This document shows positions 22,323 through 25,683 of a DNA stretch of 32,432 nucleotides, one piece after another. The notes under the pieces are model-generated. The model was not told where the DNA came from. It was given only the letters and a program-made list of their open reading frames with translations, and did not search any database. Numbering within the stretch: position 1 is the stretch's first letter; each line of letters begins with the position of its first letter. Source of the DNA: Granulosicoccaceae bacterium (GTDB lineage: Bacteria > Pseudomonadota > Gammaproteobacteria > Granulosicoccales > Granulosicoccaceae); NCBI GenBank assembly GCA_020629835.1, contig JAHDCO010000023.1, forward strand, positions 22,150-54,581, given 5' to 3'. The translations under genes and the position numbers were made by a program.

Positions 22323-22604
22323 TTACCAGGGCGGTTGACGACTTTCGTCGGCCGCCTGGGTCACCAAATGTTCAATGTCTTTGGGCATTTGAATGTGGAA
22401 GCCCCGTGACATCAGGTTGTCACGCACTTCTGCGATATTTTCCTGGCCAAGCGAGTTTCGTTTGGATAGATCGACTGTCAGTGCCAGCGTGGGTTCGCCC
22501 AGCTGTTTCATTACCGGTTCAGGTAAGTGGTCGAGGCCTGCGTCTTCCAGTACATAGACGTATAGACCCTCTTTCTTTGAGCTTCGGTATACAGAACAGA
22601 GCAT
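22323..22604 (-). CDS. ycgL: YcgL domain-containing protein
   Basis: A 93-residue cytoplasmic protein of the YcgL family, found mainly in gammaproteobacteria and without an established function. The opening MLCSVYRSSKKEGLYVYV and the later LGEPTLALTVDLSKRNSL, then RGFHIQMPKDIEHL, match the family pattern. I chose the ATG at 22604; a GTG five codons upstream (22619) is the only other option because a stop lies just beyond. Neither has a clear Shine-Dalgarno. It is divergent from hslR across 98 bases and convergent with the cytochrome pair. Confidence 0.85.
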   Translation of the reverse strand: MLCSVYRSSKKEGLYVYVLEDAGLDHLPEPVMKQLGEPTLALTVDLSKRNSLGQENIAEVRDNLMSRGFHIQMPKDIEHLVTQAADESRQPPW

Positions 22605-22669
22605 GGGCAAAGCACTCACAACGGATCAGGATGGTTTCTTAGGATGGCCTGCGTAATGCCACTAAGCGA

Positions 22670-22702: not shown

Positions 22703-23140
22703 GTGAGCCGCGATAAAAACGCGGAGCCGGCAGTGAAAGTCCGATTAGACAAGTGGCTGTGGGCCGCTCGTTTCTTCAAGACACGCAGTATGGCTACGGC
22801 AGCCATTAATAAAAATCGTGTTCAGATCGACGGATCATCAGTAAAACCGTCAAGACAAATTCAGGTGGGCGAATCGCTCAGGATCGAAAAGCCACCTTAC
22901 GAGTTTCGGATAGAGGTACTGGCCTTATCCGATACGCGCCGCTCGGCGAGCGAAGCGCAACAGTTGTATCTGGAAACTGACGAGAGCAAGGCCAAGCGGG
23001 AACACCAACGGCTGGAGGCTCGTGCTGACAGAGAAGCCCGCTTGGGGCTGGCCGGTGATGGTCGGCCTACTAAAAAGCAGCGTCGCCAGATCCGTTCTTT
23101 TAAGGACCAACGCAATAATGCACAAACCGGTGATGAATAA
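22703..23140 (+). CDS. hslR: ribosome-associated heat shock protein Hsp15 (S4 domain)
   Basis: RNA-binding protein that recycles 50S subunits blocked with peptidyl-tRNA. The S4 RNA-binding domain covers residues 12-65 and opens with VRLDKWLWAARFFKTRSMA, very close to E. coli Hsp15. The rest is a basic helical tail (RRSASEAQQLYLETDES, then PTKKQRRQIRSFKDQ). Length is 145 residues against 133 in E. coli. The GTG start has AGGA seven bases upstream. pcnB begins three bases after the stop, so the two RNA-binding proteins are co-expressed. Confidence 0.93.
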   Translation: MSRDKNAEPAVKVRLDKWLWAARFFKTRSMATAAINKNRVQIDGSSVKPSRQIQVGESLRIEKPPYEFRIEVLALSDTRRSASEAQQLYLETDESKAKREHQRLEARADREARLGLAGDGRPTKKQRRQIRSFKDQRNNAQTGDE

Positions 23141-23143
23141 ATC

Positions 23144-25171
23144 ATGGTGAAATCCGTGAAGACTGCGCCCGCAGTGGAAGTTCTGGGTGCCGATGACCAC
23201 GACATGTCGCAAGACATGATCAGCGCTAATGCTTTAAAGGTGCTCAATCGATTAATCGACGGTGGATTTGACGCCTTTCTGGTGGGCGGTGGGGTACGCG
23301 ATGCCCTTGTGGGCCAACAGCCCAAAGACTTCGATGTAGCTACGGATGCCAGCCCGGAAGAGGTGCGGGAGTTATTCCGTAACTCGCGCATCATTGGCCG
23401 TCGATTTCGTCTGGTTCATGTGTTGTTCGGCCGTGACGTCATTGAAGTGGCGACCTTCAGAGCCGCTCACGATAAAGGCGATGGCGGTGAGGTTGGGGAT
23501 GCCGGACAGATAGTCCGAGATAACGTATTCGGTACCGTGGAAGAAGATGCCATTCGCCGCGACTTCTCGGTTAACGCGCTGTACTACAACATCGCAAACG
23601 ATTCCATCACCGATTATTGCGGTGGATTAAACGATATGCGCGATGGTGTCTTTCGTTTAATTGGGGACGCCGTCACGCGCTGCGAAGAAGATCCGGTTCG
23701 AGTGCTAAGAGCGGCTCGTTTAAGTGCAAAACTGGGTTTTGATATTCATAAAGATACGCTCAAAGCCATGAAGAAAACGCGTCATGCGCTGGCTGAGGTG
23801 CCGGCGGCGCGTTTGTTTGAAGAGATGCTGAAACTGTTTCAGGGCGGCTATGCTGAGCGCAGTTTTAATGCGGTACGTGAACACGGCTTACTTCCGTATT
23901 TATTTCCGTTGCTTGCTCCACGGTTGGAAAACGACACCGTTGGTTTAGAGGAGCTGCTCACCACAGCTTTGCAAAATACGGATGCAAGAGTGGCGGCAGG
24001 TAAGCCGATTACTCCTTATTACCTGTTGAGTTTTATGTTGTGGCCTGATGTAGAGCAACGGGCTCGATCTCATGTAGCTGATGGTATGCCGGTGGCAGAA
24101 GCGATTGGTACGGCAGCAGATTCTGTTACTGCAGAACAGGTACGTATTATTGCTATTCCCCGACGTTTCTCAGAACCGATGCGGGAAGTGTGGGCGCTGC
24201 AGTTACTGTTAGAGCACGTCGATGCATCCAATATTGAAGCGTTGATGCAAAGCCGCCGTTTCCGTGCAGCGTATGATTTTCTGCTGTTGCGTGCATCGAT
24301 TGATGACACCTTGCAGCCGCTAGCTGATTGGTGGACCGACATCCAAGCCGCCACGCACGATCAGCGTGACGAGATGCTTGAATCCAAACCGGTCATTGAA
24401 GGCTACTGGGGTGAAAGTCCTGAACAACTCGAAAACTTAGTGGTGCCTGTACCGCCGAGCAACGACAGAAAAAACAACCGAGATCGCAATAAAAAACCTC
24501 GGCGAGGGGGGCAAAACCGCGACAACCAAAGCCGGGATTCGCAAACTAACGGTAAACCCGGGCGTGGTGCATCCAACGCGCAAGCCGATGACAGCAGCGG
24601 CAACAACCCGGGTAATCAGCGCGGGCCAAGAAAGCCGAGAAGTAACGACAACGACAACGTCGGTAATCGTCAAAAACCAACGCGTCGGCAACAAAGTGGT
24701 GGCGGCCATGAAAATTGGGACGACGACAATTTCGGCAATCGTGCGTTACCGGAAGAGAACGAAGACACCTACACCATTTACGATGAAATACAGCCTGAAC
24801 ACAACGCAAATCGCGATGCCGCAGAATTACTAGGTATGCCTGCGCAGCGCCGTCAACGCGGTGGCCGCAAGCGTCCCTCGGGTAACAGCAACGGTCAGGG
24901 CAGACGGCGCAACCCGAATGCAGGCAACGGCAATAGCGCGGCTGGTAACGGCCAGGCTCGACGTAAGAAGCGCAGCGCACGTCGTCGCCCCGATAACGCT
25001 CAAAACGGTTCAGCAGGTAATCAGGCAGTTGCCTCCGACGGCCAAGGCCAGGGAAGCAGTAAAAAAACGGCAGCTAAGAAAACCGGCGGTCAGGGCATGA
25101 ACGGCCAACGGCGAAGGCGTTCGCGCACCCGGCGCCCGCGTAATTCAGCACCCGATGGAAACGCCGATTGA
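23144..25171 (+). CDS. pcnB: poly(A) polymerase I with a long disordered C-terminal tail
   Basis: Adds 3' poly(A) tails that promote RNA decay. The class II nucleotidyltransferase head shows LVGGGVRDAL and the catalytic pair Asp62 and Asp64 in KDFDVAT. The RRDFSVNALYYN motif (138-149), the EEDPVRVLRAARLSAKLGF neck and the FEEMLKLFQGG helix identify poly(A) polymerase rather than CCA-adding enzyme. The folded enzyme ends near residue 436, close to the E. coli size (465). Another 240 residues follow that look disordered and rich in Arg, Asn and Gly, broken by an acidic island at about 524-565. The gene starts three bases after hslR and overlaps folK by four bases. Confidence 0.95.
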   Translation: MVKSVKTAPAVEVLGADDHDMSQDMISANALKVLNRLIDGGFDAFLVGGGVRDALVGQQPKDFDVATDASPEEVRELFRNSRIIGRRFRLVHVLFGRDVIEVATFRAAHDKGDGGEVGDAGQIVRDNVFGTVEEDAIRRDFSVNALYYNIANDSITDYCGGLNDMRDGVFRLIGDAVTRCEEDPVRVLRAARLSAKLGFDIHKDTLKAMKKTRHALAEVPAARLFEEMLKLFQGGYAERSFNAVREHGLLPYLFPLLAPRLENDTVGLEELLTTALQNTDARVAAGKPITPYYLLSFMLWPDVEQRARSHVADGMPVAEAIGTAADSVTAEQVRIIAIPRRFSEPMREVWALQLLLEHVDASNIEALMQSRRFRAAYDFLLLRASIDDTLQPLADWWTDIQAATHDQRDEMLESKPVIEGYWGESPEQLENLVVPVPPSNDRKNNRDRNKKPRRGGQNRDNQSRDSQTNGKPGRGASNAQADDSSGNNPGNQRGPRKPRSNDNDNVGNRQKPTRRQQSGGGHENWDDDNFGNRALPEENEDTYTIYDEIQPEHNANRDAAELLGMPAQRRQRGGRKRPSGNSNGQGRRRNPNAGNGNSAAGNGQARRKKRSARRRPDNAQNGSAGNQAVASDGQGQGSSKKTAAKKTGGQGMNGQRRRRSRTRRPRNSAPDGNAD

Positions 25172-25683
25172 ATGAGACCACGCTGGTGTATGTGGCTCTC
25201 GGTAGCAACCTGGAAGATAGCCACGCACATTTGGATGCCGCCATTGCCTATCTGGATTCTCATGAGGCAATGCATTCAGTACGGGAGTCACCACGCTACA
25301 TCACGGACCCGATGGGTCCACAGGATCAACCGGATTTTTTAAATTCGGTGTGTTCGTTTCAAACCACGCTGGAAGCTCACGAATTACTGGATGTCTTACA
25401 AGCCTTGGAAATTGAACGTGGCCGAGTTCGACCAACTGATGAAGCGGCTATCGCTGCCTTGCGTTGGCACGCACGCACACTAGACTGTGATGTGTTGTTG
25501 TTCGGGCAAACTGAAATCAAGAGTGAGCGCCTTACGGTGCCCCACATCGGTATTGCTGAACGCGCTTTCGTGTTGCAACCGTTATGTGACTTAAGCCCAC
25601 AGCTACAGATTCCAGGGCTTGGCCCTGTGGCAAACTTACTGAGCGCAGTGGATTCCTCTGGCATTCGACCAGCCCGGGGTTAA
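25168..25683 (+). CDS. folK: 6-hydroxymethyl-7,8-dihydropterin pyrophosphokinase
   Basis: Transfers pyrophosphate from ATP to 6-hydroxymethyl-dihydropterin in folate synthesis. The family features are YVALGSNLEDS at the start, DPMGPQDQPDFLNSV, the metal-binding aspartates Asp106 and Asp108 in RTLDCDVLLFG, and RLTVPHIGIAERAFVLQPL. The usual WGPRTLD appears as WHARTLD, and a few extra residues (PTDEAAIAA) lengthen the flexible loop before it. The best start is a TTG whose last two bases form part of the pcnB stop (TTGA), giving 171 residues; a GTG at codon 7 would delete part of the first strand. pcnB-folK is a classic pair. Confidence 0.94.
   Translation: MNETTLVYVALGSNLEDSHAHLDAAIAYLDSHEAMHSVRESPRYITDPMGPQDQPDFLNSVCSFQTTLEAHELLDVLQALEIERGRVRPTDEAAIAALRWHARTLDCDVLLFGQTEIKSERLTVPHIGIAERAFVLQPLCDLSPQLQIPGLGPVANLLSAVDSSGIRPARG

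Follow-up and report, generated by a model that had tools for sequence, protein, structure and literature searches.

A long arginine-, asparagine- and glycine-rich C-terminal tail with conserved islands in the poly(A) polymerase of one Granulosicoccaceae clade

The window analysed here, a 32,432-nucleotide stretch of DNA from a Granulosicoccaceae bacterium, carries a poly(A) polymerase gene, pcnB, between hslR and folK (Table 1). The PcnB model TIGR01942 matched residues 14–415 of the product with 455 bits against a cut-off of 305.65, while the stricter PcnB model PRK11623 gave 409 bits against a cut-off of 702. The three Pfam domains PolyA_pol, RNAbd and arg_C all lie inside residues 44–415, and the best PDB match is E. 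coli PAP I (3aqm; E 2.4e-105, residues 11–408). Together, the TIGR01942, Pfam and PDB matches support the identity proposed by an earlier, sequence-only reading of the window. PAPs are told from tRNA nucleotidyltransferases by the signature [LIV][LIV]G[RK][RK]Fx[LIV]h[HQL][LIV], as given in PMC8208693, and this signature was found in the window PcnB at residues 83–93. A second, weaker PcnB-like match in genome G000 (35% identity over residues 44–255, in a 423-aa frame) may be a separate CCA-adding paralogue. The three nearest named PcnB records are from uncultured Granulosicoccaceae, with core identities of 86–89%.

Table 1. Features of the pcnB locus, in window coordinates
Feature	Coordinates	Strand	Evidence or remark
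hslR (Hsp15), 3 nt upstream of pcnB	22703..23140	+	PRK10348, E 6.5e-26 (below curated cut-off); S4 domain
pcnB, poly(A) polymerase I, 675 aa	23144..25171	+	TIGR01942, E 2.2e-136; Pfam PolyA_pol/RNAbd/arg_C
Folded part, residues 1–436	23144..24451	+	AlphaFold blocks mostly >90 to about residue 430
PAP signature IIGRRFRLVHV, residues 83–93	23390..23422	+	Fit to published consensus, by eye
Apparently disordered tail, residues 440–675	24461..25168	+	Composition; low pLDDT; no family match above chance
Island 1, residues 440–456, basic, NDRKN..RDRNRKPRQRGG	24461..24511	+	12/17 identical in four species
Filler, residues 457–520	24512..24703	+	10/64 identical; large between-species length differences
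Island 2, residues 521–565, acidic and aromatic	24704..24838	+	26/45 identical
QRGG(R/K)RP segment, residues 566–578	24839..24877	+	7/13 identical
Island 3, residues 605–616, RRKKRSARRRPD	24956..24991	+	10/12 identical
Island 4, residues 640–665, KKTAxKKxGGQGMNGQRRRRSRxRRP	25061..25138	+	21/26 identical
folK, first listed start TTG overlaps pcnB stop	25168..25683	+	TIGR01498 above cut-off

The window PcnB is an ordinary poly(A) polymerase up to about residue 436. AlphaFold values were mostly above 90 in the core, with lower values in loops around 107–128, and the block means were 90 for residues 421–430, 75 for 431–440 and 60 for 441–450, followed by 33–50 for the remaining blocks. The sequence-only reading had ended the fold near residue 436 and started the tail at position 24452, which is residue 437; this boundary is right, since the domain models stop at residue 415 and pLDDT falls from residue 431 on.

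The neighbourhood of pcnB was surveyed in flanks of at most 3 kb, with one locus (L095) counted once. All 16 Granulosicoccaceae loci, long- or short-tailed, have hslR upstream of pcnB, and none of the 59 other loci does; folK is found near pcnB in 56 of the 59 loci outside the family and adjoins it in E. coli. The linkage of hslR and pcnB is a family trait, unrelated to the tail. Co-translation with Hsp15 had previously been taken to favour an RNA-tethering role, a line of support that falls away, since the arrangement is common to all 16 family loci whatever the tail length and gives no evidence for a tail role. Between the cytochrome c genes and hslR, the minus strand of the window carries a 98-aa ORF (22323–22619), which we take to resemble YcgL and which has a match in 15 of the 16 loci.

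Residues 441–675 (235 residues) contain 38 Arg, 33 Asn, 33 Gly, 21 Ala, 19 Gln, 18 Asp, 17 Ser, 14 Pro and 13 Lys, with a net charge of +26; our recount returned exactly the Arg, Asn and Gly numbers reported before. The clusters described earlier exist, in a wording that was slightly generous, as there are two RGG (454, 572), two GNG (594, 601) and RRR at four overlapping positions. The description of the tail as almost free of hydrophobic residues holds for its overall composition (V/I/L/M/F/W/Y/C make up 5.5% of residues 441–675 versus 34% of residues 1–440), but it hides a concentration, as the aromatic and aliphatic residues, few as they are, lie mostly within one island, 521–565. Among 27 window ORFs chosen by hand as likely genes, the richest 200-residue stretch reached 44.5% R+N+G in PcnB and 24.0% in the next ORF, with a median of 19%, and none of the other 26 came near the composition of the tail.

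Prediction of disorder, which had been proposed as a check, gave results in the anticipated direction, with AlphaFold pLDDT of about 33–60 across the tail and values below 50 at residues 455–609, 614–669 and 671–675; one low-confidence helix was predicted at residues 551–562. The input was an alignment of 52 PcnB proteins, few of which cover the tail, so that the low pLDDT is suggestive of disorder and may partly be caused by the shallow alignment. A frameshift, tandem-repeat or assembly artefact was ruled out, since the tail is in frame in the assemblies of four different species and the only tandem run found in it is 16 bp long.

Searches with the tail in its own genome, by protein comparison (E ≤ 10) and by profile, returned nothing apart from the tail itself. 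The PHROGs search gave no match, and a profile comparison with the PDB likewise returned no hit at E values up to 10. When the tails of four species were compared with Pfam, a single chance-level match was obtained in one of the four (FXR_C1, E 0.18, 12.5 bits versus a cut-off of 28).

PcnB was found in 25 of the 27 genus genomes. The two genomes with no PcnB match, G009 and G391, have completeness values of 86% and 76%, and since both are incomplete the absence is likely an assembly gap. Beyond residue 427, four of the 25 proteins have 248–314 residues (long-tailed), two have 130–136 (middle) and 19 have 25–75 (short-tailed). Close relatives lacking the tail had been named as the finding that would speak against the tail as described, and this is the situation of 19 of the 25 PcnB-bearing genomes, so that the tail fails as a general feature; its job must be dispensable in most of the genus, where it is missing. 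The short-tailed proteins (e.g., L006–L017) share 59–65% core identity with the window PcnB and have a basic block such as KKRRRRRRRKP; they differ in tail length and in a LLKRLSGLSRSALNKTR-type N-terminal segment.

We extended the comparison to 123 distinct rows from the genus, the class and named genomes (133 before dropping duplicates, with cut or divergent rows such as L105, L028 and L029 included). The median length past residue 412 was 30, and only seven rows exceeded 100 residues, i.e., the four long-tailed, the two middle and one Arenicellaceae protein. Sixteen further class rows chosen for long open frames had at most 79 residues; together with L122 and L126, these are the outside-genus rows with a frame of at least 503 aa among the matches listed. 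Across the class, 335 of the 369 genomes gave a PcnB-like match, and the tail lengths reported here are for rows among the matches listed. Most class rows examined, like the E. coli protein, have just a short basic C-terminal end. On a tree of the core, all four long-tailed rows group together (100/100), as do the two middle rows (99/98), and the two clades are weakly supported sisters (85/74). Based on this distribution and the core tree, the long tail is lineage-specific and not a general PcnB feature, and it appears to be an outgrowth of the short basic C-terminal block that is common in PcnB. The Arenicellaceae protein (L106, 3001–4743, uncultured) likewise has a long N/Q/R-rich tail, 178 residues past position 412, and no room for an N-terminal segment; it differs in its core (46% identical) and in a tail in which the islands are not visible by eye. 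It stands apart from the long-tailed clade on a very long branch of unsure placement, and it is apparently a separate case of tail growth.

To describe divergence among the four long-tailed species, raw pN and pS were used instead of dN/dS, since dS is saturated for most pairs and the ratios are unusable. pS was at or near saturation in the core (0.73–0.83) and in the tail (0.68–0.81). Core pN was 0.06–0.09, and the islands gave 0.03–0.14 (431–456), 0.09–0.17 (521–563), 0.03–0.23 (605–618) and 0.09–0.21 (639–667). The segment 564–578 gave 0.20–0.34, and the fillers 0.38–0.53 (457–520), 0.25–0.46 (579–604) and 0.35–0.57 (619–638). Judged from these substitution values, the tail islands are under purifying selection, far more conserved than the filler and approaching the core. 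Conservation at the nucleotide level was considered as a cause of the islands and thought unlikely, since synonymous differences are frequent within them (pS 0.43–1.05 depending on island and species pair, and 0.76–1.05 in 521–563). Island 2 has the consensus HENWDDDNxGNRAxPEExEDTYTIYDxIQPEHNANRDxAELLG and includes the low-confidence helix, and island 4 is similar by eye to the terminal basic block of short-tailed relatives.

From residue 440 of the window protein on, 96 of 236 residues are identical in all four species, with 76 of 113 inside islands and 20 of 123 elsewhere, a split that is circular, as the islands had been delimited by eye on that very alignment. A scan test based on 5000 shuffles needs no such borders. 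The densest 20-residue stretch (646–665) has 18 invariant positions, a density that 4 of 5000 shuffles reach; at the other extreme, the emptiest stretch of 30 residues has 1 of 30, reached in 1 of 5000; other widths gave 12 of 5000 (densest 12), 115 of 5000 (emptiest 20) and 148 of 5000 (densest 30). By the pN contrast and the scan, the tail shows short conserved linear motifs in variable filler, with the acidic island 2 not a significant peak on its own (a scan of width 43 peaks there, at 515 of 5000 shuffles). We conclude from the same two lines of evidence that parts of the tail are functional protein sequence, most securely island 4. A search with island 2 in the 27 genus genomes gave matches in seven at E ≤ 10, four of them the PcnB tails. 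The three weak matches (E 0.02, 0.95 and 5.5) were judged to be chance, and the protein under the E 0.02 match looks unrelated on inspection; credible matches are thus confined to 4 of the 27 genomes.

The N-terminus of PcnB also varies with tail class. All 19 short-tailed genus rows have the conserved, cationic LLKRLSGLSRSALNKTR-type segment ahead of the core (the L017 copy by eye), and none of the six others has it: in the four long-tailed rows nothing precedes the core, and a single residue separates the upstream stop from the ATG, and the two middle rows have instead a K/A/T-rich repeat extension of 134–169 residues. This perfect genus-wide association may reflect one event. Loss of the segment needs no tail, as such a segment would not fit, and a long tail is likewise missing, in two Granulosicoccaceae rows (L045, L046) and in at least eight further short-tailed rows of the class. 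Seven genus N-terminal segments had hydrophobic moments of 0.37–0.62, values attained in 43 to 712 of 5000 shuffles; their mean hydrophobicity is low and their amphipathicity modest, and we do not claim them as certain membrane anchors. In L004 and L005 (PcnB of G004 and G016), an N-terminal extension of AAKK/SKKTA type lies in open frame and is accompanied by a G/N/Q-rich C-terminal tail of about 130 residues. In L010 (PcnB of G013), the N-terminal linker that joins the amphipathic segment to the core carries a long run of Gly-Ser and Thr-Asp repeats.

E. coli PAP I shares with the window PcnB the family match over residues 11–408, the PAP signature, a basic C-terminal end and folK downstream. 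The contrast drawn by the sequence-only reading is borne out, as the E. coli protein has an N-terminal leader and, at its C-terminus, a basic end of about 20 residues, whereas the window protein has a 235-residue tail and no leader. The E. coli N-terminus is IFTRVANFCRKVLSREE; PMC9764084 describes a 17-residue leader that is cleaved, cites a report that places PAP I in the cell membrane and mentions binding regions for RNase E, RhlB or Hfq. Interaction of the C-terminal region of E. coli PAP I with degradosome proteins is stated in PMC12985599. PMC9764084 also speculates that membrane localisation of PAP I and its assembly into ribonucleoprotein bodies are perhaps regulated, so the idea of PcnB in bodies of this kind has a precedent. 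Among the papers listed from the open-access PMC literature on such PcnB tails or on PcnB in BR-bodies, represented mostly by titles and the starts of abstracts, none describes a long, disordered or low-complexity PcnB tail.

Given the likeness to RNase E tails suggested earlier, we examined RNase E in 25 of the 27 genus genomes; the other two (G006, G012) gave just a partial or short-frame match among the matches listed. The noncatalytic region has 266–776 residues, five rows being cut by the end of the stretch or contig. Near its start lies a GGLRRILGKVTSLF-type segment (pattern in 3 of 25, others similar by eye), which on our reading would be MTS-like, followed by an R/N/G/A-rich stretch. 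The first 260 noncatalytic residues of the RNase E of the window genome contain 13% R, 11% N and 13% G. The suggested likeness is upheld for composition, in which the PcnB tail matches the R/N/G-rich stretch of RNase E of the same genomes. When each PcnB tail was compared with the RNase E tail of its own genome, 6, 226, 117 and 27 of 300 shuffles scored as high in the four species, which does not indicate homology, and an origin of the tail as a relic or copy of RNase E sequence was rejected, as the similarity does not consistently beat shuffles. The net charge of the noncatalytic region (L213–L237) ranges from −64 to +25 across genus species; it is +17 to +19 in the four species with a long-tailed PcnB (one cut short), and likewise in several short-tailed ones.

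According to PMC4435900, RNase E of gamma-proteobacteria has a disordered RNQ-rich region with embedded microdomains, for which tandem-repeat growth has been proposed. In P. aeruginosa, arginine-rich motifs of the noncatalytic region of RNase E give RNA binding and foci (PMC11964227), and degradosomes are membrane-bound in E. coli and form cytoplasmic condensates in Caulobacter (PMC9848016). The PcnB tail resembles the noncatalytic region of RNase E in being apparently disordered and R/N-rich with short conserved islands in variable filler, and it combines two features expected of an RNase E-type scaffold region, R/N-rich composition and pLDDT below 50 (on a shallow alignment over the tail). 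It differs in sitting on another enzyme, in a likeness that is not consistent beyond composition, and in being without an AEPV-rich half, as it has few E and V residues.

Based on these comparisons, the reading we favour is that the tail would tether PcnB by binding RNA, in the manner of RNase E, and so contribute to its recruitment to RNA or degradosome bodies; it may in this way stand in for an N-terminal localiser. We regard this proposal as evenly poised between right and wrong. In this scheme, an ordinary PcnB would add A-tails to RNA 3' ends, and in one clade its short basic C-terminal block would have grown into an apparently disordered region of 236–302 residues, made of R/N/G/Q-rich filler and several short islands of conserved sequence; most of these are basic, and one is acidic and aromatic. 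Spaced arginine clusters would bind RNA weakly at many points, and the islands, chiefly 521–565, may provide docking contacts, either with a partner or with the basic tail. PcnB would thereby be kept near RNA, or in RNA-decay foci alongside an RNase E with a stretch of similar composition. As the N-terminal segment present in short-tailed sisters has been lost from this clade, a localising job may have passed to the tail. We infer RNA binding, partner docking, shared foci and replacement of the localiser from the comparisons above. The N-terminal and tail changes represent few events, possibly one (sister support 85/74). The most far-reaching version, in which a cationic amphipathic N-terminal segment (a possible membrane anchor, in a genus where RNase E has an MTS-like segment too) was exchanged for an RNase E-like disordered RNA-binding tail with new docking motifs, appears doubtful to us.

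A rival explanation is that the tail is a non-specific polycationic appendage for RNA affinity or solubility, in which charge and disorder suffice, with no partner or shared body, and which raises the local RNA concentration or the processivity of the enzyme itself. The net charge of +26 fits this explanation, as do the short, often basic ends usual in PcnB (median of 30 past residue 412 in the 123 distinct rows) and the great differences in length and filler among sister species. Bulk charge alone, however, does not call for an acidic island with invariant W, I and Y, nor for islands kept while synonymous sites are at or near saturation, and we consider the explanation rather unlikely, though worth serious attention. 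The same fast-changing fillers, with tail lengths differing by up to 66 residues across the four species, could instead point to a mostly near-neutral low-complexity growth, produced by slippage and indels and tolerated at a free C-terminus. The 130-residue version in the sister species looks repeat-grown (GNSQGNSQGNSPGN in L035), genus RNase E likewise has long variable fillers, and the tandem-repeat growth proposed for RNase E regions (PMC4435900) would offer a precedent. Neutral growth is nevertheless improbable in view of the low-pN islands and the clustering of invariant sites, the retention of the tail in four of four clade members, and a window tail in which no tandem array remains.

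Basic tails of this kind could bind rRNA, and with hslR 3 nt upstream, the tail might be thought to hold PcnB on rRNA or ribosomes, where it would work together with Hsp15 in the quality control of stalled subunits. The same neighbourhood in all 16 Granulosicoccaceae loci, at any tail length, speaks against such a tether, which we find very improbable.

Overall, the window PcnB is a selected, lineage-specific variant of a known enzyme with a known type of RNA-enzyme tail. How a bacterial poly(A) polymerase meets RNA and the degradosome is only partly known. If an N-terminal localiser was indeed exchanged for the tail, PcnB of this clade would be a built-in client or co-scaffold of RNA-decay bodies, and the exchange would amount to a natural evolutionary experiment on the coupling of polyadenylation to the degradosome. 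The long-tailed clade beside its tail-less sisters offers a ready comparison for testing a role of disordered tails in the recruitment of tail-adding enzymes to RNA-decay foci, and it also bears on whether such tails can substitute for an N-terminal localising segment.
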